Assembly: GCF_009742705.1 (NCBI RefSeq)
Contig: NZ_WPCU01000010.1
Location: 129,838 to 178,065 of the forward strand
Source of the DNA: Auraticoccus cholistanensis
GTDB taxonomy: Bacteria > Actinomycetota > Actinomycetes > Propionibacteriales > Propionibacteriaceae
Length of the DNA: 48,228 nucleotides
Direction: 5' to 3'
The notes beneath the pieces are model-generated. The model worked only from the letters and a program-made list of their open reading frames with translations. It did not search any database and was not told the DNA's origin. Made by a program: the position numbers and the translations under genes. This document shows, piece by piece, positions 2,079-10,751 of this stretch (positions are counted from its first letter, which is position 1; each line of letters opens with the position of its first letter).

Positions 2079-2711
2079 TCAGCCGGCGCGGGCGGCCAGC
2101 CACTCCACCAGCGGGCGCATCAGCTCCCAGTCGTGGCGGACCCGGCCGACCAGGGCGTGGTCGGAGATCACCGGGTCGAAGCCGTAGCTGCGTCCCAGGT
2201 TCAAGGTGGTGTGGCGCAGCAGCTCGATCCGGGGGTGGTCCCGCGGCCAGCCGCGCGGCGCGGTCCGCAGCCGGTCCCCGCTCACCTCGAGCCCGCGCGA
2301 GCGGGCCTCGGCCAGCAGCCGCTCCAGCTCCGCCCCCGGGCGTCCGGCGATGTCGCGCCGCACCCGGGCCAGCGTCTCGCCGTCGCCTCCCCAGCGTCCG
2401 GCCGCCACGCGCACGCCCGCGGCGGACAGCTCGACGTACCAGCCGGTGTGGTCGGCCGCGGCCACGTAGGCGCCCTGGTGCGTCTTGTAGGGCGACTTGT
2501 CCTTGGCGAAGCGGACGTCGCGGTGCGGCCGGAACAGCTTGGCGGTGCCGAACTGCTCGGCCAGCTCGGCGGTCAGCGCCACCATCGGGGCCCGCACGCA
2601 CTCCTCGTAGACGTGGCGGTGGCGCTCCCAGAAGGAGCGCGAGTTGTCCAGCTCGAGGTCGTCGTAGAAGTCCAGCGCCGCCTCGGGGAAGCCGGCGAAC
2701 CGCTCAGCCAT
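2079..2711 (-). CDS. DUF2461 family protein, formerly coupled to rlmN
   Basis: A 210-aa protein of the DUF2461 (TIGR02453) family, of unknown function. Typical features are the N-terminal FPEAALDFYDDLELDNSRSFW region, the basic patch FRPHRDVRFAKDKSPYKTHQG (about residues 63-83), and a terminal segment rich in Trp and Arg. The ATG at 2711 shares its A with the TGA of the stranded rlmN tail (TGATG). In the uninterrupted chromosome this gene would therefore have been translationally coupled to rlmN, as the last gene of that operon. The integrated element has now moved it about 5.9 kb away from the operon promoter. Longer open frames upstream only read the rlmN tail out of frame. Confidence 0.8.
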   Translation of the reverse strand: MAERFAGFPEAALDFYDDLELDNSRSFWERHRHVYEECVRAPMVALTAELAEQFGTAKLFRPHRDVRFAKDKSPYKTHQGAYVAAADHTGWYVELSAAGVRVAAGRWGGDGETLARVRRDIAGRPGAELERLLAEARSRGLEVSGDRLRTAPRGWPRDHPRIELLRHTTLNLGRSYGFDPVISDHALVGRVRHDWELMRPLVEWLAARAG

Positions 2712-2878
2712 CAGGCCTCGCTGGCCGCCAGCTGTCCGCAGGCGCCGTCGATCTCGCGGCCGCGGGTGTCGCGGACGGTCACCGGCACGCCGTGGGCCTC
2801 GAGCCGGCGGACGAACTCGCGCTCGTCTTCCGGCCGGGACGCCGTCCACTTCGAGCCCGGGGTGGGGTTGAGCGGCAT
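2711..2878 (-). pseudogene. rlmN: Stranded native 3' end of rlmN (C-terminal fragment)
   Basis: The reading frame from the 11-bp core to TGA encodes 54 residues beginning [18 protein letters not shown] and ending [20 protein letters not shown]. This is the normal C-terminus of RlmN, including the ACGQL segment with the methyl-accepting cysteine. The rest of the gene lies at 8813-9817, separated by the integrated element. Joining the two halves at the core restores [14 protein letters not shown] in frame, the usual RlmN sequence. The element edge supplies an in-frame ATG (2878-2876) with AGGGG just upstream, so a 55-residue peptide could be translated. That might also keep translation running into the overlapping DUF2461 start. 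The fragment cannot act as an enzyme, because it lacks the radical-SAM core. Confidence 0.9.
2865..2875 (+). other. Attachment core, left end of element
   Basis: GGGTTGAGCGG, identical to 8802-8812. Bases outside differ on both sides: G versus C before the core, C versus G after it. The crossover must therefore lie within these 11 bp. On the rlmN strand it encodes PLNP of the RlmN motif NLIPLNP. Inward of the core the element continues CATCAACCCCTAAG, which makes a dyad GGGTTGA-gcggca-TCAACCC across this end. Confidence 0.8.
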
Positions 2879-3054: not shown

Positions 3055-3249
3055 ATGAGCGTGGTGGCCGCAAGCCACCAGGTGAAGACCTACTTCATCG
3101 ACAAGCTCAAGCACTGCCGCGAAGACGCCAGCGACGCTCCTCCCAACACGACTGTGGAGCTTGAGCGATACATTCACATCGACGAGGGAGACACCGACGT
3201 TCTCCTGATCATCCCCGAGTGGGACTTGTGGAACTCAGATCTCTCGGTG
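3055..3249 (+). pseudogene. Small element gene interrupted by an IS3-family insertion
   Basis: An ATG at 3055 follows a good ribosome-binding site (AGGAGC, 8 bases upstream). It opens a frame starting MSVVAASHQVKTYFIDKLK, rich in acidic and hydrophobic residues and giving about 65 codons before the IS left end near 3250. The open frame continues another 17 codons into the IS to a stop at 3301-3303, but those residues come from IS sequence. I do not recognise the protein. Across the IS, the frame after 4513 stays open for about 54 codons (ending at 4678) but gives no convincing continuation. The gene lies in the leftmost part of the element, upstream of the restriction gene and on the same strand. 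Confidence 0.5.
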
Positions 3250-3262
3250 GGGACTGCTGCAC
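3250..3262 (+). repeat. IS3-family left inverted repeat
   Basis: GGGACTGCTGCAC, matching the complement of 4501-4513 at 12 of 13 positions. Confidence 0.7.
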
Positions 3263-3281
3263 CGATAGGTGACAGTGGTTC

Positions 3282-4160
3282 TCAGGCGGCGAGTGCGACC
3301 TGAGTGCTGTTGATGGTCTCGTACTCGATCGGGGTGAGTCGACCGAGGCGGGCTTGTCGTCGGCGACGGTGGTAGGTCCGTTCGATCCAGGTGATGATCG
3401 CCTGTCGTAGTTCGGCCCGGGTGGTCCAACGCCGCCGGTCCAGGACGTTCTTCTGCAGCAGGGAGAAGAAGGACTCCATGGCGGCGTTGTCACCGGCGGA
3501 GGCGACCTGACCCATCGAGCCGGCCAGCTGGTGGCGGCGCAGCTGGTCCAGGAAGCGTCTGGAGCGGAACTGCGATCCGCGATCGGAGTGGACCGTGCAG
3601 CCGGCGATGTCGCTGCCGCGGCGGGCGACCGCGGAGGCGAGGGCGTCCACGGCCAGCTGGGACTTCATCCGGCTGCTCATGGAGTAGCCGACGATCCGGC
3701 CCGAGAACACGTCCTTGATGGCGCAGAGGTAGAGCTTGCCCTCAGCGGTGGGGTGTTCGGTGATGTCGGTCAGCCACAGCCGGTTCGGGGCTGCTGCGGT
3801 GAACTCGCGTCGGACGAGGTCGTCGTGGGCTGGCGGGCCGGGCCGCTTCCCGTTGGCGCCCCGCTTCTTCCCGAAGACCGACCACCAGTGGTTGGCTGCG
3901 CAGATCCGCCACACCGTCCGGTCACCGACCCGGTGACCGGCCGCGCGGGCTTCGTCACCGAGGAGCCGGTGACCGAACTCCGGGTCGTCGCGGTGGGCGT
4001 CGAACAAGGCGGTGGCCAGGGCGGCCTGCTCGCGATCTCGTGGCGTGACCGGCTGGGCAGCCAGCGGTAGTAGGGCTGGCGGGCGAGCTTGAGGACCCGG
4101 CACGTCACCGTGACGGGGATCCCGTCCTCGGCGAGCTTCTGACACGAGCGGGTACATCAT
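3282..4160 (-). CDS. IS3-family transposase OrfB (DDE integrase), N-terminus out of frame
   Basis: Carries the rve integrase core with all three catalytic acids: D in LWLTDITEHP, D in VHSDRGSQF and E in DNAAMESFFSLLQ. Near the N-terminus the canonical protein would read MMYPLVSELAEDGIPV, continuing to RQPYYRWL, then QPVTP. Here an extra A (GAAGCTC for GAGCTC) and a missing G later on put about 27 residues (roughly 9-35) in the wrong frame. The two shifts compensate, so the 292-codon frame stays open, but the segment that usually follows the OrfA/OrfB junction is scrambled. OrfA overlaps by 56 bp. The copy is likely impaired or inactive, unless these are assembly errors. Confidence 0.8.
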   Translation of the reverse strand: MMYPLVSEARRGRDPRHGDVPGPQARPPALLPLAAQPVTPRDREQAALATALFDAHRDDPEFGHRLLGDEARAAGHRVGDRTVWRICAANHWWSVFGKKRGANGKRPGPPAHDDLVRREFTAAAPNRLWLTDITEHPTAEGKLYLCAIKDVFSGRIVGYSMSSRMKSQLAVDALASAVARRGSDIAGCTVHSDRGSQFRSRRFLDQLRRHQLAGSMGQVASAGDNAAMESFFSLLQKNVLDRRRWTTRAELRQAIITWIERTYHRRRRQARLGRLTPIEYETINSTQVALAA

Positions 4161-4443
4161 TTCCCGGCAGGTTCGCCTGGGACAAGTAGGCCGCGGCCCG
4201 GCGCAGGACCTCGTTCTCCTGCTCCAGCAACCGGTTCCGCCGGCGCAGCTCCCTCAGCTCAGCCGACTCCTGGGTCGGGGTCCCGGGTCGGTGGCCGTCC
4301 TCGACGTCGGCTCGGGGGAGCCAGTTCCGCAGGCAGGACTCGCTGATGCCGAAGTCCTTCGCGATCTCAGCAACCGGGGCCTCGCCGCGGCGGGCCACGG
4401 CCACGACGTCGTCGCGGAACTCCTTGGGGTGGGGTCTGGGCAC
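4105..4443 (-). CDS. IS3-family transposase OrfA (HTH)
   Basis: About 112 aa from the GTG at 4443, preceded by AGAGGAT. A helix-turn-helix of the IS3 transposase_8 type (KEFRDDVVAVARRGE through IAKDFGISESCLRNWL) is followed by a leucine-zipper-like segment, ELRELRRRNRLLEQENEVLRR, before AAAYLSQANLPG. It binds IS ends and joins OrfB by frameshifting. In canonical relatives OrfA stops just after LPGK, at the OrfB ATG. Here GGAAATGATG has one A fewer than the usual GGAAAATGATG, so OrfA runs on for 18 odd residues to 4105. This is another sign that the junction has been altered. Confidence 0.8.
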   Translation of the reverse strand: MPRPHPKEFRDDVVAVARRGEAPVAEIAKDFGISESCLRNWLPRADVEDGHRPGTPTQESAELRELRRRNRLLEQENEVLRRAAAYLSQANLPGNDVPARVRSSPRTGSPSR

Positions 4444-4500
4444 GGTGCATATCCTCTCCCGCGGTGCCCTCCAGCACCACAGATCAGGTGTCACCTACTC

Positions 4501-4513
4501 GTGCAGCAGACCC
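4501..4513 (-). repeat. IS3-family right inverted repeat
   Basis: GTGCAGCAGACCC, the inverted partner of 3250-3262. It lies just upstream of the transposase OrfA start. Confidence 0.7.
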
Positions 4514-4735: not shown

Positions 4736-5707
4736 GTGCCGACCAACGATGACTACCTCGCCGAACTGGCCCGCGCCTCCGAGGTGCTCCAAGACCTCGC
4801 TGGCGAGGATGTGGACGCCATCGATGTGAAGTCCGTGGAGACGGAGGAAGCGCCCTTCCTTGCCAAGATCGTGAGCAAGCTTTCCCCGATGGTGGGCAAC
4901 CTCATGGAGCAGCGGGTTGTGTCGATCCTCGATGAGGAGGCGGAGGACGGCTTCTCCTGGCACCGCCAAGACCCAGGGTTTCCCGACGCCATTCTCAAGC
5001 ACCCTGACGCCACCGGGACCCACACGGGCTACGAGATCAAAGCTTGGTATGTGCTCAGCACCGAGATCACTGGCCGATTCAAAGAGTCCCAGCACCTGCT
5101 AGCCGACAAGAACATCAATGTGGTCATCGTGGCGTGGTGCATGAGCCACATGATCTTCGGCAAGCCCAAGATCCTCGGAGTGCTCACAGTGTCGGGGCAG
5201 GAGCTCGCCGCAAGCCGTGACAGCCACTACCACAACCCGCCTGAGTACCTCATCGTCGAGCCGCAGGACACGAGCGCCCGCACCGCCAACCTGCAACAGA
5301 GCAATGTGAACGGCTACAAGCTTCAAGAGGCAGACAGTGACGCCGCGCTTCTTGCCCGCATCCGAGCCGAGCACGCAGCCCTCACAAGCCGCCCTGATCC
5401 CTACTCCGCGGCAGCTCAGGCGGAGGCGCTCGACCTCATGAATAGGCTCGTGTACCGCTTGGATACCAACTTCGCCAAGATCGACCGAGTAGTGAACGCG
5501 GATGTGGAGGCCTTCAAGAGCCAGATCTTGAGCTCCACCTACTTGGGCAAGACCATTTCCCAGTGGAAGACCCTCTTTGCAGACCTCAACGGAAGCAATG
5601 AGGCCAAGCGCCAGCGGGCCGAGGCGGTCATCAAGGACCTCTACGGCAACATGCTGGTGGAGGAGCCTAGAACAGCCGTGTCTGCTGAGTCTGAAGGCGC
5701 TCTATAG
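4736..5707 (+). CDS. Putative type II restriction endonuclease (PD-(D/E)xK fold)
   Basis: A 323-aa protein with a visible nuclease core: P83-D84 (in DPGFPDAILKHP), then 15 residues on E100-I-K102 (in TGYEIKAWY). This is the PD-x15-ExK arrangement of restriction enzymes. The strands NVVIVAWCMSHMIFG and KILGVLTVSG follow as expected for that fold. The C-terminal third is mainly helical and charged. Its stop overlaps by 41 bp the end of a DNA methyltransferase gene read toward it, the usual context for a type II restriction-modification pair. No Shine-Dalgarno is visible before the GTG start, and a leaderless transcript is possible. The recognition site cannot be read from the sequence. Another PD-(D/E)xK DNA-processing nuclease remains possible. 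Confidence 0.75.
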   Translation: MPTNDDYLAELARASEVLQDLAGEDVDAIDVKSVETEEAPFLAKIVSKLSPMVGNLMEQRVVSILDEEAEDGFSWHRQDPGFPDAILKHPDATGTHTGYEIKAWYVLSTEITGRFKESQHLLADKNINVVIVAWCMSHMIFGKPKILGVLTVSGQELAASRDSHYHNPPEYLIVEPQDTSARTANLQQSNVNGYKLQEADSDAALLARIRAEHAALTSRPDPYSAAAQAEALDLMNRLVYRLDTNFAKIDRVVNADVEAFKSQILSSTYLGKTISQWKTLFADLNGSNEAKRQRAEAVIKDLYGNMLVEEPRTAVSAESEGAL

Positions 5708-6719
5708 CGAGGGCGTAGAAAGCATCATCCCGCTCGGCCGCATAGCCCTGACGGTTGTTGTTGACCGCTGCCAGCGTGGCGGTGCAGAGGCCACCGAAGG
5801 GTTCCCACACCACATCCCCCTCTTGAGTGCAAGCCCTGATTGAGCGCTCCACAAGGTCTAGGGGCTTCTGGTTCAAGTGGGTGGCGCTCATTGCGGTGGG
5901 CTTGTAGGTGCGCGGCGCACTCCGCACCATGCTCCCTCGATACCGCTCCTGCCCACGAAGCGAGGGCCGCTCCCATACGTTGGTCACGCCGTGCTCGTGG
6001 TTCCAGACTGAGCGGAAGGATGTCCACTCCTCAGCGGTAACTGGCTTCTGGCCGTCAAGAGAGTAGTAGGGAGCACCCTCGGGCTTGCCGTGCTCATTGG
6101 CATAGGCAACGAGCTTCATCATGACCTCCACGGGCGGGAAGTACCACAGCCAGCCCTGATCAAAGTACTTGCGAGTGGCGGCGTCCTTCACCCCGCAAGC
6201 TTCGTTAGCGGCACGGCGCGGCAGGCCCGAGCGCACCCACTCCGCCAACAGCCACTGCTTCATGTGAACCAGCTCATCCGAGTCAGGCGTGATGGGGAGA
6301 CGCGGCGTGCGGGTGTAGAAAACACAGACCTCAGTAACCACAGGAAAGCGGCGGATGGTCTTGGAGTTCACATTGCCAGCAACCTGCCCCACACCCTTGT
6401 TCCAGATGTTGGTGAACTCGTAGTTCCAGCCGTTGGCCACGAGCACGGGGTGAACATTGGCCCAGCCGACCTCGGTGTTCCAGAACCACAGTGTGGTGCC
6501 GAGAGTGGCGTGCTTGCTCCACGCCTCAATGTGGGGGCGGTACCACTCGCCCAAGTTCTCGGGCGTGCGCGGATCACCCGTGAAGCCGCCCACGCCGTAG
6601 GCACCGTCACTGATGATGGTGTTGGGCGTGGGCCAAGACTCGTAGGCCTCCAGAGCGTCACCGTTGTGGATCTTCCACAGCGGCTCATCCTCCGTGATCT
6701 CGACAGGTTCAGCAGTCAT
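5667..6719 (-). CDS. DNA methyltransferase (N4-cytosine/N6-adenine type, beta-class motif order)
   Basis: A 350-aa modification enzyme. The catalytic motif IV comes first, as SDGAYG at residues 37-42 (a variant of the usual DPPY-type motif). The AdoMet-binding motif I comes near the C-terminus, as EPFGGLCTATLAA (about 306-318). The TRD-like region lies between them. This order defines the beta class. HLNQKPLDLVERSI just before motif I is the typical QKP-x2-L motif of N6/N4 methylases. The ATG at 6719 is chosen because family homology begins there (WKIHNGDALE); CGGAGCC lies about 9 bases upstream. It converges on the restriction gene with a 41-bp overlap. It should protect the host from that enzyme by methylating the shared site. 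Confidence 0.85.
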   Translation of the reverse strand: MTAEPVEITEDEPLWKIHNGDALEAYESWPTPNTIISDGAYGVGGFTGDPRTPENLGEWYRPHIEAWSKHATLGTTLWFWNTEVGWANVHPVLVANGWNYEFTNIWNKGVGQVAGNVNSKTIRRFPVVTEVCVFYTRTPRLPITPDSDELVHMKQWLLAEWVRSGLPRRAANEACGVKDAATRKYFDQGWLWYFPPVEVMMKLVAYANEHGKPEGAPYYSLDGQKPVTAEEWTSFRSVWNHEHGVTNVWERPSLRGQERYRGSMVRSAPRTYKPTAMSATHLNQKPLDLVERSIRACTQEGDVVWEPFGGLCTATLAAVNNNRQGYAAERDDAFYALAIERLQTQQTRLF

Positions 6720-6909: not shown

Positions 6910-8559
6910 TCAGCTCACATCGCTCATCGCTAGCGACTCTCGTGCCTGCTTGAGCAGGCGGAAGCCGTAGGAGCGGCTCACCCCGTAGCGCTCGGCCACC
7001 GCCACACCTGAGAGCTTCGGGTCCTGCTTCAGGAGCTCAATGACCTCGGGCAACTGCTTCGGGAGCTTCGGTCCGCATGGCATGGGCTGGGCGTCCGCAG
7101 GCGCTCCATGGGTGGTGCCGTCGTCCCACATGATGCTGATGCGGTCCGTAGTGGACTTGTGGGGACCCGCATAGGGCTTGATGAAGATGACTCGGCAGTG
7201 CTGGGCCAGCATGGCCTGCCAGCCGTCGAAGTCGTAGGCGTCTTGGATCTGGTCGTCCCAGTCCTCTAGCCACTCCGTCTCCCCGATGGAGAAGTCCACG
7301 TTCTGCGGGAGCTCGTCGACCAGCGAGGGGGCCTTCTGCACCAGCTGCTCGCGGTAGTGCTCGTCGCGCTCCTTGGTGAGCTGCTTCCGCTCCTCGTCCA
7401 GCTCCTCCACTTGCGGCAGCAGGATGTCTCCCGAGACCCGCCCAGCGTTGTACGTCGCCATGAGCTCTTGGATCTTGGAGTTGACCTCGGCCAAGCGGCC
7501 CTCGCCAAGCCACTCGGCGGGAGGCTCTGCCTCGAGGTCGCCTTTGCACTCACTCAGGTGCACGAAGGTGGCCGTCTTCACGTAGCGCTCCAGCACGGAA
7601 GCCGTGATGCTGAAGTGCTGGCCCTTGCAGCGGTACATCTGCTCGCCGCGCACCACCACGCCGAACATCGGCTGGGAGCACTTGCCACAGCGCAGGTGGT
7701 GAGTCAGGAGGTACTTCCCGAAGCGGCGCTTAGGCGTATGGCGCTTCTCGATAGCCGCAAGCAGGGCCTCGTGCTGTTCCTCGGTCATGAGCGGCTCCCA
7801 CTCACCGATGATTGGCTTCCCCTGCTCGTCCCGCATAACCTCCTTCTTGTAGGTCATCCAGCCGCAGAGGCGAGGGTTCATCAGCACTACCTTGAGCGCT
7901 TGGTAGGTCCACTCCCTGCCAGCGGGAGTCAGAACGCCTTGCGCGTTCCACCTCTTGGCTATGGAGGTGATGGCCACACCTCCGAGCACCTGCTCAACGG
8001 CTTCCTTCAGGTGCGGAGCCTCGGTGGGGTGAAGCGCCTTGTAGTCCTCAGACCAGCCGAAGGCACGGTTGCCGCCCTTCCAGACTTTGCCCTCCATGGC
8101 TCGGCCTAGGTGGGCCCGCTTCAAGCGCTCTGAGGTGCGCTCAGCCTCGGCAGCGTCCCATGCGGCGACGGTGATGGCCAATGCACGGCCGTCCGCAGTG
8201 CTCAGGTCGTGGCTTCCCGGGACCACTGTGCGGATTCGAGGCTTGCCCTCGTCGGCTAACTGGATGAGCTCCATCCACTCGGCGGGGCGACGGGTCAGGC
8301 GGGAGTTGGAGTAGACGATGACGGTATCCGCAAGCCCTGGCCGCACGTCACGGAGCATGGAGGCATAGGCGGGCCGCACCTTCTTAGAAAGGTTGGAGGC
8401 ACTGATGTCGTTGTCGATGGCCACTCGCCACACTTCGATGCCCGAGCGCTCCGCAAGTGCACGGCAGTCCACTTCCTGCCGCTTGACGCCCACCTCTTGC
8501 CCGTCACCGTCTCGGCTAATTCGGCAGTAGATCACTGCCTTGCGGGAGGGTGAAGTCAC
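6910..8559 (-). CDS. Large serine integrase (site-specific recombinase)
   Basis: About 549 aa from the GTG at 8559. The N-terminal resolvase domain shows YCRISRDGDG with predicted nucleophile Ser15, then VYSNSRLTRRPAEWMEL and later RTSERLKRAHLGRAMEGKVW. A recombinase domain (about residues 165-265), a zinc-ribbon start LRCGKCSQPMFG, and a coiled-coil stretch (EVNSKIQELM through ERKQLTKERDEHY, about 365-420) follow. The last 40 residues form a helix-turn-helix-like segment, IELLKQDPKLSGVAVAERYG. It integrates and, with a directionality factor, excises the element. It lies 73 bp inside the right attachment core. The frame is open upstream, but that part overlaps the rlmN tail in another frame. 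No recombination directionality factor is recognisable. Confidence 0.9.
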   Translation of the reverse strand: MTSPSRKAVIYCRISRDGDGQEVGVKRQEVDCRALAERSGIEVWRVAIDNDISASNLSKKVRPAYASMLRDVRPGLADTVIVYSNSRLTRRPAEWMELIQLADEGKPRIRTVVPGSHDLSTADGRALAITVAAWDAAEAERTSERLKRAHLGRAMEGKVWKGGNRAFGWSEDYKALHPTEAPHLKEAVEQVLGGVAITSIAKRWNAQGVLTPAGREWTYQALKVVLMNPRLCGWMTYKKEVMRDEQGKPIIGEWEPLMTEEQHEALLAAIEKRHTPKRRFGKYLLTHHLRCGKCSQPMFGVVVRGEQMYRCKGQHFSITASVLERYVKTATFVHLSECKGDLEAEPPAEWLGEGRLAEVNSKIQELMATYNAGRVSGDILLPQVEELDEERKQLTKERDEHYREQLVQKAPSLVDELPQNVDFSIGETEWLEDWDDQIQDAYDFDGWQAMLAQHCRVIFIKPYAGPHKSTTDRISIMWDDGTTHGAPADAQPMPCGPKLPKQLPEVIELLKQDPKLSGVAVAERYGVSRSYGFRLLKQARESLAMSDVS

Positions 8560-8632: not shown

Positions 8633-9817
8633 CTATTCTTCCGCTGCGAGCTGCCCACACGCCGCGTCGATGTCGTTGCCTCGCGTGTCCCGCATCGTGG
8701 TGCTGATACCCCGCGCCTGAAGCCGCCTAACGAACTCCGCCATGTCCTCTTCGCGAGACCGCGTGTAAACGACCTCGTTGACCTTAGGTTCACGTTTGAT
8801 CGGGTTGAGCGGGATCAGGTTGACGTGCACCCAGCCCCAGTCGCCCCGGCGCTTGAGCACCGTGGCGAGCCGGTCCGCGCGCCAGGCCTGGTCGTTGATG
8901 TCCTTGATCAGCGCGTACTCGATCGAGACCCGGCGCCGGCTCACCCGGGCGTACTCCCAAGCGGCGTCGACGACCTCGTCCACCTTGTGACGGGTGTTGA
9001 TCGGCACCAGCGTGTCGCGCAGCTCGTCGTCGGGGGCGTGCAGGCTGACCGCCAGGGTCAGCGGGATGCCCTCCTCGGTGAGCTGCTGGATGCGCGGCAC
9101 CAGCCCCACGGTGGACAGCGTGACGCCGCGGGCGCTGATGCCCAGCCCGTCCGGCTCGGGTGCGGTGATGGTGCGGATGGCCTGCATCACCGAGGCGTAG
9201 TTGGCCATCGGCTCGCCCATCCCCATGAAGACGACGTTGGAGATCCGCCCCGGACCGCCGGCCGCCTCGCCGCGGGCCAGCGTGCGGGCACCGGCCACCA
9301 CCTGCTCGACGATCTCGGCGGTGCTCATGTTGCGCTGCAGACCGCCCTGGCCGGTGGCGCAGAAGGGGCAGGCCATCCCGCAGCCGGCCTGGGAGGAGAT
9401 GCAGATGGTGCTGCGGGTGCCGGGCCGGCCGACGCCGTAGCGCATCAGCACGCTCTCGACCAGCGCGCCGTCGTGCAGCCGCCACAGCGACTTGACCGTG
9501 GCCCCGTCGTCGCAGCCGAGGGTGCGCACCGGGTGCAGCAGCCGGGGGAAGAACTGGCTGGCCACGGCCTCCCGCACCGACGCCGGCAGGTCGGTCCAGC
9601 CGGTCGGGTCGTCGTCGAGGCGCTCGTACCAGTGCCGGGACAGCTGCTGGGCGCGGAAGGCCGGCAGCCCGGCCTCCACCACCCGCTGGCGGCGGGTGGC
9701 GGCGTCCAGGTCGCTCCAGTGCTCCGGCGGCTTGCCGCGCCGGGGCGCGCGCATCACCAGCGGCAGGGCGGGGGCGTCGTCGGGGACGACCTTCTCGAAG
9801 TCGTAGGTCTCGGTCAT
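8633..9817 (-). CDS. rlmN: 23S rRNA/tRNA adenine-C2 methyltransferase RlmN, chimeric C-terminus
   Basis: Radical-SAM enzyme that methylates C2 of A2503 in 23S rRNA and A37 in some tRNAs. The 394-aa protein shows the cluster motif CGMACPFC, the preceding catalytic cysteine in [10 protein letters not shown], and GMGEPMANY. The last 59 residues (8633-8812) come from the integrated element: after PLNP it reads [19 protein letters not shown] instead of the native [14 protein letters not shown]. It is five residues longer, but retains [16 protein letters not shown] with the essential methyl-carrying cysteine. The ATG at 9817 follows GGAG; a GTG ten codons upstream would overlap cdsA. It is downstream of cdsA in the frr-cdsA-rlmN operon. 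Function is probably retained through the swapped tail. Confidence 0.95.
8802..8812 (+). other. Attachment core, right end of element
   Basis: Second copy of GGGTTGAGCGG. The chromosomal side (8813 onward) continues the rlmN body. The element side (up to 8801) reads CCTTAGGTTCACGTTTGATC, whose CCTTAGG is the inverse of the CCCTAAG found next to the left core. This suggests the two element ends formed one dyad-symmetric attP before integration. Confidence 0.8.
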
Positions 9818-9839
9818 CAGGTGCTCCAGGGAAGTGGCC

Positions 9840-10751
9840 TCAGCCACCGGGGATCAGCAGGTACATGGTCAGCCACGCCACGGGGGCCGACACCAGGAGG
9901 GAGTCGAGCCGGTCCATCACCCCGCCGTGGCCGGGCAGGATCGAGCTCATGTCCTTGATCCCGACGTCGCGCTTGATCAGGGACTCGATCAGGTCTCCAC
10001 AGACGCCGATCCCCACCAGGGTGGCACCCAGCACCAAACCGACCCAGACCGGCGTGCCGAGGGTGAGCCGGGTCATCAGCACCGCGACCAGGCAGCCGAG
10101 CACCATGGAGCCGGCGAAGCCCTCCCAGGACTTCTTGGGGCTGATCCGCGGCGCCATCGGGTGGCGTCCGGCCAGCACCCCCACGGCGTAGCCGCCGATG
10201 TCGGAGCAGACCACGACCGCGATGAAGGTCAGCACCCGCAGCGAGCCGTCCTGGTCGGCCAGCATCAGCGACACGAACGCCCCCAGCAGCGGGACGTAGG
10301 CGATGATGAACAGGCTCGCGGCGACGTCCTTGACGTAGCCCTGCGCGCCCCCGGGCATCCGCCACACCAGCGAGGCCAGCACCGTGACGCCGATGGCGGC
10401 GAGCAGGATCGAGGTGGCGTCGGCGGCCGCGACGTCGCGCTGGCCGGCGAAGTAGGAGCCGACCACGATCAGGAAGGTGCCGCCGACGATCGGCACGATG
10501 GCCGCGTGCATCTGCAGCCGTCGCAGCGCGTGGTGCAGCTCGACGGCCGCCTGGGCCAGCGCGACCGCCACGAACACGGCGAAGCCGAGCTGGAACTTCC
10601 ACAGGCTCAGCAGCAGCAGCACCGCCAGCCCGACGCCGACCGCGATCGCGGCCGGCAGGTTGCGCCCGGCCCGGCCGTGCTGGGGCGGGGCGGGTGGGGT
10701 GTGGTACTCCGGCTCGAGCGCGCGGCCCGGCGGGGTGTCGGCGTCGCTCAC
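9840..10751 (-). CDS. cdsA: Phosphatidate cytidylyltransferase
   Basis: Makes CDP-diacylglycerol from phosphatidate and CTP at the membrane, the precursor for cardiolipin and phosphatidylinositol synthesis. The 303 residues have a proline-rich cytoplasmic N-terminus, about eight hydrophobic segments, and the family signature near the end: [20 protein letters not shown] followed by GVMDRLDS. The GTG start immediately follows the frr stop (TGA-GTG). The end lies only 22 bp before the ATG chosen for rlmN. It is therefore cotranscribed with frr, probably also with pyrH. Confidence 0.95.

Follow-up and report, generated by a model that had tools for sequence, protein, structure and literature searches.

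Results

The stretch of DNA analysed here, in the following called the window, comprises 48,228 nucleotides of Auraticoccus cholistanensis and contains an rlmN gene that consists of two parts of different origin. The gene is a single open frame of 404 codons on the minus strand (9847-8633, as listed from GTG). Its larger, host-derived part (8813..9847, minus) matches TIGR00048 above the cut-off and encodes the radical-SAM core with the upstream Cys149 and the CxxxCxxC motif up to HVNLI. The last 59 codons (8812-8636) together with the TAG stop (8635-8633) make up a replacement tail (8633..8812, minus), which belongs to the long form of class B as defined below. Both parts are fused at an 11-bp core, GGGTTGAGCGG as read on the plus strand (8802..8812), inside the codons for Pro-Leu-Asn-Pro (PLNP). 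A preliminary description of this DNA had placed the crossover in PLNP upstream of ACGQL and had given the new tail 59 codons instead of the native 54; the tail agrees to the base, the core is found within the PLNP codons at both junctions, and the proposed motif RDTRGxxIDxACGQL is indeed present in the fused tail.

Over the 320 residues before the tail the RlmN body is 89% identical to that of G015 and 88% identical to that of G001, the two nearest genomes, and it groups with its own family. The fused tail shows over its full length 77% identity to the tail of G096 from another order, and up to 74% to tails of the related family f3. None of the native-type tails among the 110 compared exceeds 66%. 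With the body nearest to its own family and the tail nearest to class-B tails of other families, the idea of an enzyme assembled from two lineages is supported. The composition at third codon positions shows the same division, as GC3 is 0.98 in the rlmN body and 0.96 in the displaced native tail described below versus 0.75 in the fused tail, 0.83 in the integrase and 0.78 in the methyltransferase of the island. A comparison of the fused tail with the tail of G096 gave a dN of 0.17 at a dS of 1.36, indicating that the peptide has been under selection along the path between them; this path spans the time in both lineages including the own history of G096, and the ratio is no evidence of selection on the island.

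An island of about 5.9 kb separates the fused tail from the displaced one, with a GC content of 64% compared to 74% for positions 10-48 kb of the window. Its first gene starts 73 bp past the rlmN stop on the same strand (6910..8559, minus, predicted GTG start at 8559) and encodes a large serine integrase of 549 amino acids that is composed of a Resolvase catalytic domain (PF00239), a Recombinase domain (PF07508), both above their cut-offs, and a long C-terminus. A predicted type II restriction-modification (R-M) pair is also present, in which the gene for an N6/N4 DNA methyltransferase (5667..6719, minus, 350 amino acids from ATG), recognized by type II methyltransferase models (MTase_II), adjoins the gene for a type II restriction-enzyme homologue (4736..5707, plus, 323 amino acids), which matches REase_II with 4.4e-50 and has no Pfam or NCBIfam match at 0.001. 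Within the island lies an IS3-family insertion sequence (3255..4508, minus) with imperfect inverted ends of 20 bp and a GAC at either side, and its insertion is later than the island; it breaks a short frame starting at 3055. The 11-bp core shared by both ends and the uninterrupted site in G015 and G001 are as expected for an integrated element. It is not an SCC-type cassette, as the target is rlmN and the integrase scores 24 against a CcrA cut-off of 700 and 38 against a CcrB cut-off of 900.

The second copy of the core (2865..2875) marks the junction between the island and the displaced native RlmN tail (2711..2875, minus). This tail has 54 codons (2875-2714) followed by TGA down to 2711, has no rlmN body upstream and was detected as a second tail match with 61% identity. 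Both G015 and G001 possess an uninterrupted rlmN with a native tail, and both junctions of the window align to them. At the protein level the displaced tail matches that of G015 in every residue and that of G001 in all but one, and since it shows zero amino-acid changes against G015 at a dS of 0.26, its displacement is recent. From the 48 rlmN tails of the window's own family 46 are of the native type (class A), while G028 carries a short class-B tail and the window a long one; besides the window's own, none of the 48 is of the IKREPK type, so this tail is not the native one, as had been proposed. Because the tails of the relatives are native-type and the displaced copy is host-like in GC3 and the fused tail island-like, the latter most probably arrived with the island. 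Long tails of the same kind do exist in seemingly uninterrupted rlmN genes, namely in G096 and, with identical tails, in G404, G602 and G611, all of them from other families, which points to a donor lineage or to older integrations and not to a native state in the window. The junction pattern is not due to chance, as both junctions align to the intact rlmN of the nearest genomes and another family has displaced tails as well, in five of its 341 genomes.

To describe the tails we compiled 112 rlmN loci of related Actinomycetes, which yielded 110 tails (G318 and G522 were without a usable frame, and G001 was added by hand). They fall into two discrete classes, A with 93 and B with 17 rows, whose proportions are biased toward B because 25 of the 112 loci were taken as best scorers of a class-B query. 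Class A reads PTPGSxWTAS...GACGQL and class B (F/Y)TRSR..D..(D/N)AACGQL, with IDAACGQL being present in one class-A row. The long form of class B has five or six extra residues after PLN and occurs in the window, in G096 and in G404, G602 and G611; G643 also belongs to it, with FTKS for FTRS, and G603 has the same score as G404, G602 and G611 (known from the score alone). A maximum-likelihood tree was built from the 320 residues that precede the tail in all 110 bodies, and on it the class label changes at least ten times, with seven changes forced by well-supported branches, compared to a mean of 16.1 changes for shuffled labels on the same tree. Families f1 and f3 account for 84 rows, in which each of the 16 class-B tails was compared with the tail belonging to the most similar class-A body and showed 58-70% identity, while in 39 class-A pairs with equally similar bodies the tails are 83-100% identical.

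Displaced tails were searched for in three sets of genomes. Among 341 genomes of family f3, 325 had a match, seven had more than one tail match and five carry displaced tails; G651, with its second match in a 264-amino-acid frame on another contig, and G794, with two frames of 533 amino acids and a contamination of 9, were excluded. Of 394 genomes sampled across the class 375 had a match, and the window's genome is the only one with a displaced tail. The second matches in G114, G118, G222 and G265 lie inside long frames and were rejected as displaced tails. In G222 (L207), a genome of 1.4 Mb, two RlmN tails are found 982 bp apart, both in long frames, which looks like a tandem duplication within rlmN. 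All 392 Streptomyces genomes had a match, with a second one only in G1045 (contamination 6) and clearly weaker best matches in G921 and G1033, as judged from match counts and not from tail sequences. With the window alone in the class-wide sample and one second match in Streptomyces, displaced tails are concentrated in f3 within the genomes searched.

The five f3 loci differ in what lies between rlmN and the displaced tail. The insert behind rlmN in G674 (L189:3852-9454) measures 5.8 kb and carries a DUF4304 gene. It also contains an ApeA_NTD1 gene and an IrrE-like match that is weak and below the cut-off, and it may represent a defence island at the rlmN site. In G846 the displaced tail comes after 4.2 kb, in which amidohydrolase and metallo-beta-lactamase-fold genes are located. 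Downstream of rlmN, G791 (L190) has two consecutive displaced tails, with a DDE transposase between rlmN and the first of them, and these are apparently stacked insertions at the same codons. The distance is about 0.5 kb in G643, where a single frame of 135 codons has no match in Pfam, and also about 0.5 kb in G790, a fragmented assembly (75% complete) with two further tails on a second contig. In the window and at the seven readable f3 junctions the RlmN frame is picked up again at the PLN codons or shortly before them, the match at the G674 junction extending a few codons further up. Upstream of its displaced tail, at a distance of about 45 bp, G643 (L192) has an extra near-copy of the rlmN DNA preceding PLN, ctgggtgcacgtcaacctga, which looks like the result of repeated hits or duplications at this site.

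No window-like serine integrase was found at the other displaced-tail loci when 26 stretches, most of them from the surroundings of rlmN, were searched by tblastn with the integrase of the window and related ones as queries, and this counts against the explanation favoured below; for tyrosine integrases the coverage was Pfam on ten frames. Three EVPGS-type tails of relatives had been considered as island-borne and were rejected, with neither a window-like integrase nor a displaced tail in about 15-18 kb downstream. The suggested search for further copies of the tail led to the long tails in rlmN genes of other families, and in viral_contigs the fused tail had no match. At the level of matches alone, it gave 22 hits in phage records, all below 60% identity, and 242 in plasmid records, one of them at 60-80%, and displaced tails may be among these. 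A scan of genome_contigs for class-B tails gave at least 80 loci, and the frame was read in one of them, Aeromicrobium sp. Root495, which has a short class-B tail. As its rlmN body is 87% identical to that of G412, genus g31 of f3 looks like Aeromicrobium.

The distribution of the tails could also be explained if the classes moved by ordinary homologous recombination only, the island having landed in a gene that was already class B or the downstream class-A copy being the newcomer. In line with this, class-B tails are present in 14 of the 36 f3 rlmN genes that were read, and by the count of tail matches in none of these 14 genomes is a displaced tail found nearby. Also in line with it, G073 (L076), a class-B genome within a class-A group, shares with G357 (L084) 92-95% DNA identity before the tail, 76% in the tail and 92-94% after the stop, with no island at the tail. 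In the window, however, the downstream copy equals the G015 tail in protein and has host composition, whereas the fused tail has the composition of the island, and the displaced tails of five other genomes and of the window start at the same codons, which homologous recombination would not need. We therefore consider this explanation improbable. The swap between G073 and G357 spans about 150 bp from just after PLN to the stop codon, and since no island is left there, it could stem from homologous recombination as well as from the loss of an island. In G028 a stretch of about 195 bp follows the swapped tail, is missing from G005 and is possibly a scar.

In order to judge whether the chimera is a plausible enzyme we looked at its catalytic residues and its predicted structure. 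In E. coli RlmN SAM first methylates Cys355, and Cys118 acts in deprotonation (PMC12871812), so a loss of the tail would, according to this account, remove the methyl carrier. In an alignment of 44 RlmN proteins C149, C156, C160, C163 and C397 (the ACGQL cysteine) as well as the block IDAACGQL are invariant; this set consists of the window protein and diverse bacteria picked by a class-B query, and the class-A version IDGACGQL is absent from it. The chimera reaches 296.5 bits with TIGR00048 (cut-off 290). The modelling of the insertion that had been suggested before was performed with AlphaFold2 and gave an RlmN-like model with a mean pLDDT of 89.2, in which the tail helix 366-378 is confident (blocks of 95 and 97) and the insert loop 351-360 reaches 73 and the cysteine block 391-400 71. 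The best PDB match in Foldseek was 6fz6 with a TM score of 0.94 by target length, E. coli RlmN entries reached 0.85-0.89, and all of the top ten matches are RlmN or a radical-SAM methyltransferase named RlmN by sequence search. From these data the replacement tail looks functional, and the chimera may be an active dual-specificity enzyme making m2A2503 and m2A37.

The gene could instead be dying, its frame open by chance and its product inactive. RlmN is dispensable in some bacteria, and the insert loop and the cysteine block are the less confident parts of the modelled tail. Against this, the invariant catalytic residues are kept, the dN/dS of the tail against its closest relative is low, the TIGR00048 score is above the cut-off and similar long tails are found in full-length frames of other families, making a dying gene quite improbable. 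That faulty assembly or binning merged two organisms at a short repeat is extremely improbable, even if the core is just 11 bp long and the genome a 17-contig assembly, as both junctions lie within one contig of 834 kb in a 99.98% complete genome, the displaced tail runs on into sequence of host composition and five other assemblies also contain displaced tails.

Discussion

The two junctions, the core, the displaced tail, the foreign composition, the conservation of the tail peptide and the RlmN-like model of the chimera can be read from the sequence, and with them we regard it as highly probable that an R-M island with a serine integrase recombined into rlmN, swapped its catalytic tail and pushed the native tail downstream. 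The integrase of the island probably performed this integration by recombining the attP of the circular island with an attB in the Pro-Leu-Asn-Pro codons. The right side of attP would be coding, continuing the rlmN frame and supplying a full tail with the methyl-carrying cysteine in ACGQL, and because of this the integration would exchange about 55 residues at the C-terminus rather than inactivate the enzyme, with the native tail being shifted about 5.9 kb downstream. As the integrase gene is oriented like rlmN and follows its stop so closely, it may be read from the host promoter.

The first codons of the fused tail presumably also carry the attP arm. Such a double role of the DNA as attP arm and code would explain why divergence and extra length are found exactly between PLNP and EFVRRL, and the divergence after PLNP and the five extra codons may well reflect it. 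The recognition signals themselves are less clear. In a test for dyad symmetry none of 14 att sites exceeded the shuffles, which speaks against pseudo-palindromic sites; this test was ungapped and allowed no spacing differences, so imperfect dyads can escape it. In attP the zinc-domain motif is reported to be 5 bp more distant from the centre than it is in attB (PMC3783163). In the intact G015 gene GGTGCACG begins 19 bp before the PLN codons, and in four of eight displaced arms a word with at most two mismatches from GGTGCA[CT]G begins at 22-24, an offset range chosen after looking; two more displaced arms have GGTGC at 23. For these post hoc offsets shuffles gave a mean of 0.22 and reached four in 2 of 20000 cases. 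The offsets would fit the 5-bp rule for attP and attB, and this fit stays a lead, as they were picked post hoc and dyad symmetry was not seen.

Beyond the window, the rlmN site appears to be a recurrent insertion point with exchange of the catalytic tail that has been used repeatedly in f3, which suggests that RlmN tails are exchanged between lineages. A wider reading, quite possible but tentative, is that one actinomycete family and its neighbours use the 3' end of rlmN as a hub for the exchange of cassettes. Its units, most without a serine integrase of their own, would be moved either in trans or by enzymes related to the window integrase, and their attP arm would double as the tail; serial integrations would stack old tails, two of them in G791, and swapped tails would stay after a unit is lost. 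If this is true, the catalytic segment of a core radical-SAM enzyme moves as part of mobile DNA. The findings also add rlmN to the genes whose 3' end is an insertion hub, here followed by cargo for defence and metabolism.

Elements that restore the gene at their insertion site have been described, and what is new here is the apparently repeated replacement of the catalytic tail of a radical-SAM enzyme. Phage 21 and e14 replace the 3' end of icd with a coding end of their own, but these are elements of enterobacteria with tyrosine integrases and change few amino acids. Both lambdoid elements are described to insert at the icd site (PMC12803456) and like the window island use a coding gene. SGI1-like islands in dusA (IMEVchUSA3) and the ICE SXT in prfC are reported to restore the reading frame and alter the gene end (PMC8409611). 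As in the window the frame of a conserved gene is rebuilt, but according to this description they swap the N-terminus and bring a promoter, whereas the window island swaps the C-terminal catalytic tail and has a serine integrase. AICE03 of Streptomyces RLB3-6 is inserted in rlmN with 11-nt direct repeats (PMC9513070), comparable to the 11-bp core here, and is likewise an integrative element of an actinomycete. Unlike the window island it is a conjugative AICE, and its description, on which the comparison is based, mentions no replacement tail. In the open-licence literature this was the only report found on rlmN together with attB and an integrase, and nothing was found on rlmN and mobile elements in Nocardioides. 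SCCmec and the Enterococcus cassette chromosomes (ECC) use large serine recombinases at the 3' region of rlmH, also a methyltransferase gene, and carry variable cargo, with multiple attR in 16 of 32 ECCs (PMC6222049). They differ, as far as described there, in the target rlmH, in direct repeats of about 50 nt and in the CcrA/CcrB pair. We know of no exchange of a ~55-codon tail in these cassettes.

The window thus holds a serine-integrase R-M island with a catalytic replacement tail of 59 codons, inserted at a site of apparently repeated tail exchange. In a conserved enzyme that modifies ribosomal and transfer RNA, the active-site cysteine is located on a segment brought in by mobile DNA and apparently exchanged repeatedly across species. 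This opens two questions to experiment, namely how far a mobile element can dictate the sequence of a core enzyme and whether a single DNA stretch can be both recombinase site and catalytic peptide.

As for the integrase itself, searches of genome_contigs and viral_contigs gave no relatives and all matches in phage and plasmid records are below 60% identity. The nearest f3 integrases are those of G763 (54%), G715 (51%), G681 (48%) and G719 and G802 (both 46%), none with an RlmN tail within flanks of about 1.5 kb. Among the sequences searched no other element shares the integrase of the window, the best match having 54% identity and not adjoining an RlmN tail, and this counts against the favoured explanation. 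The relatives in G763 (L339) and G719 (L340) adjoin gene fragments, which we take to be from a DNA ligase D and a ComM-type ATPase, respectively, and this suggests that they use other protein-coding genes as targets.
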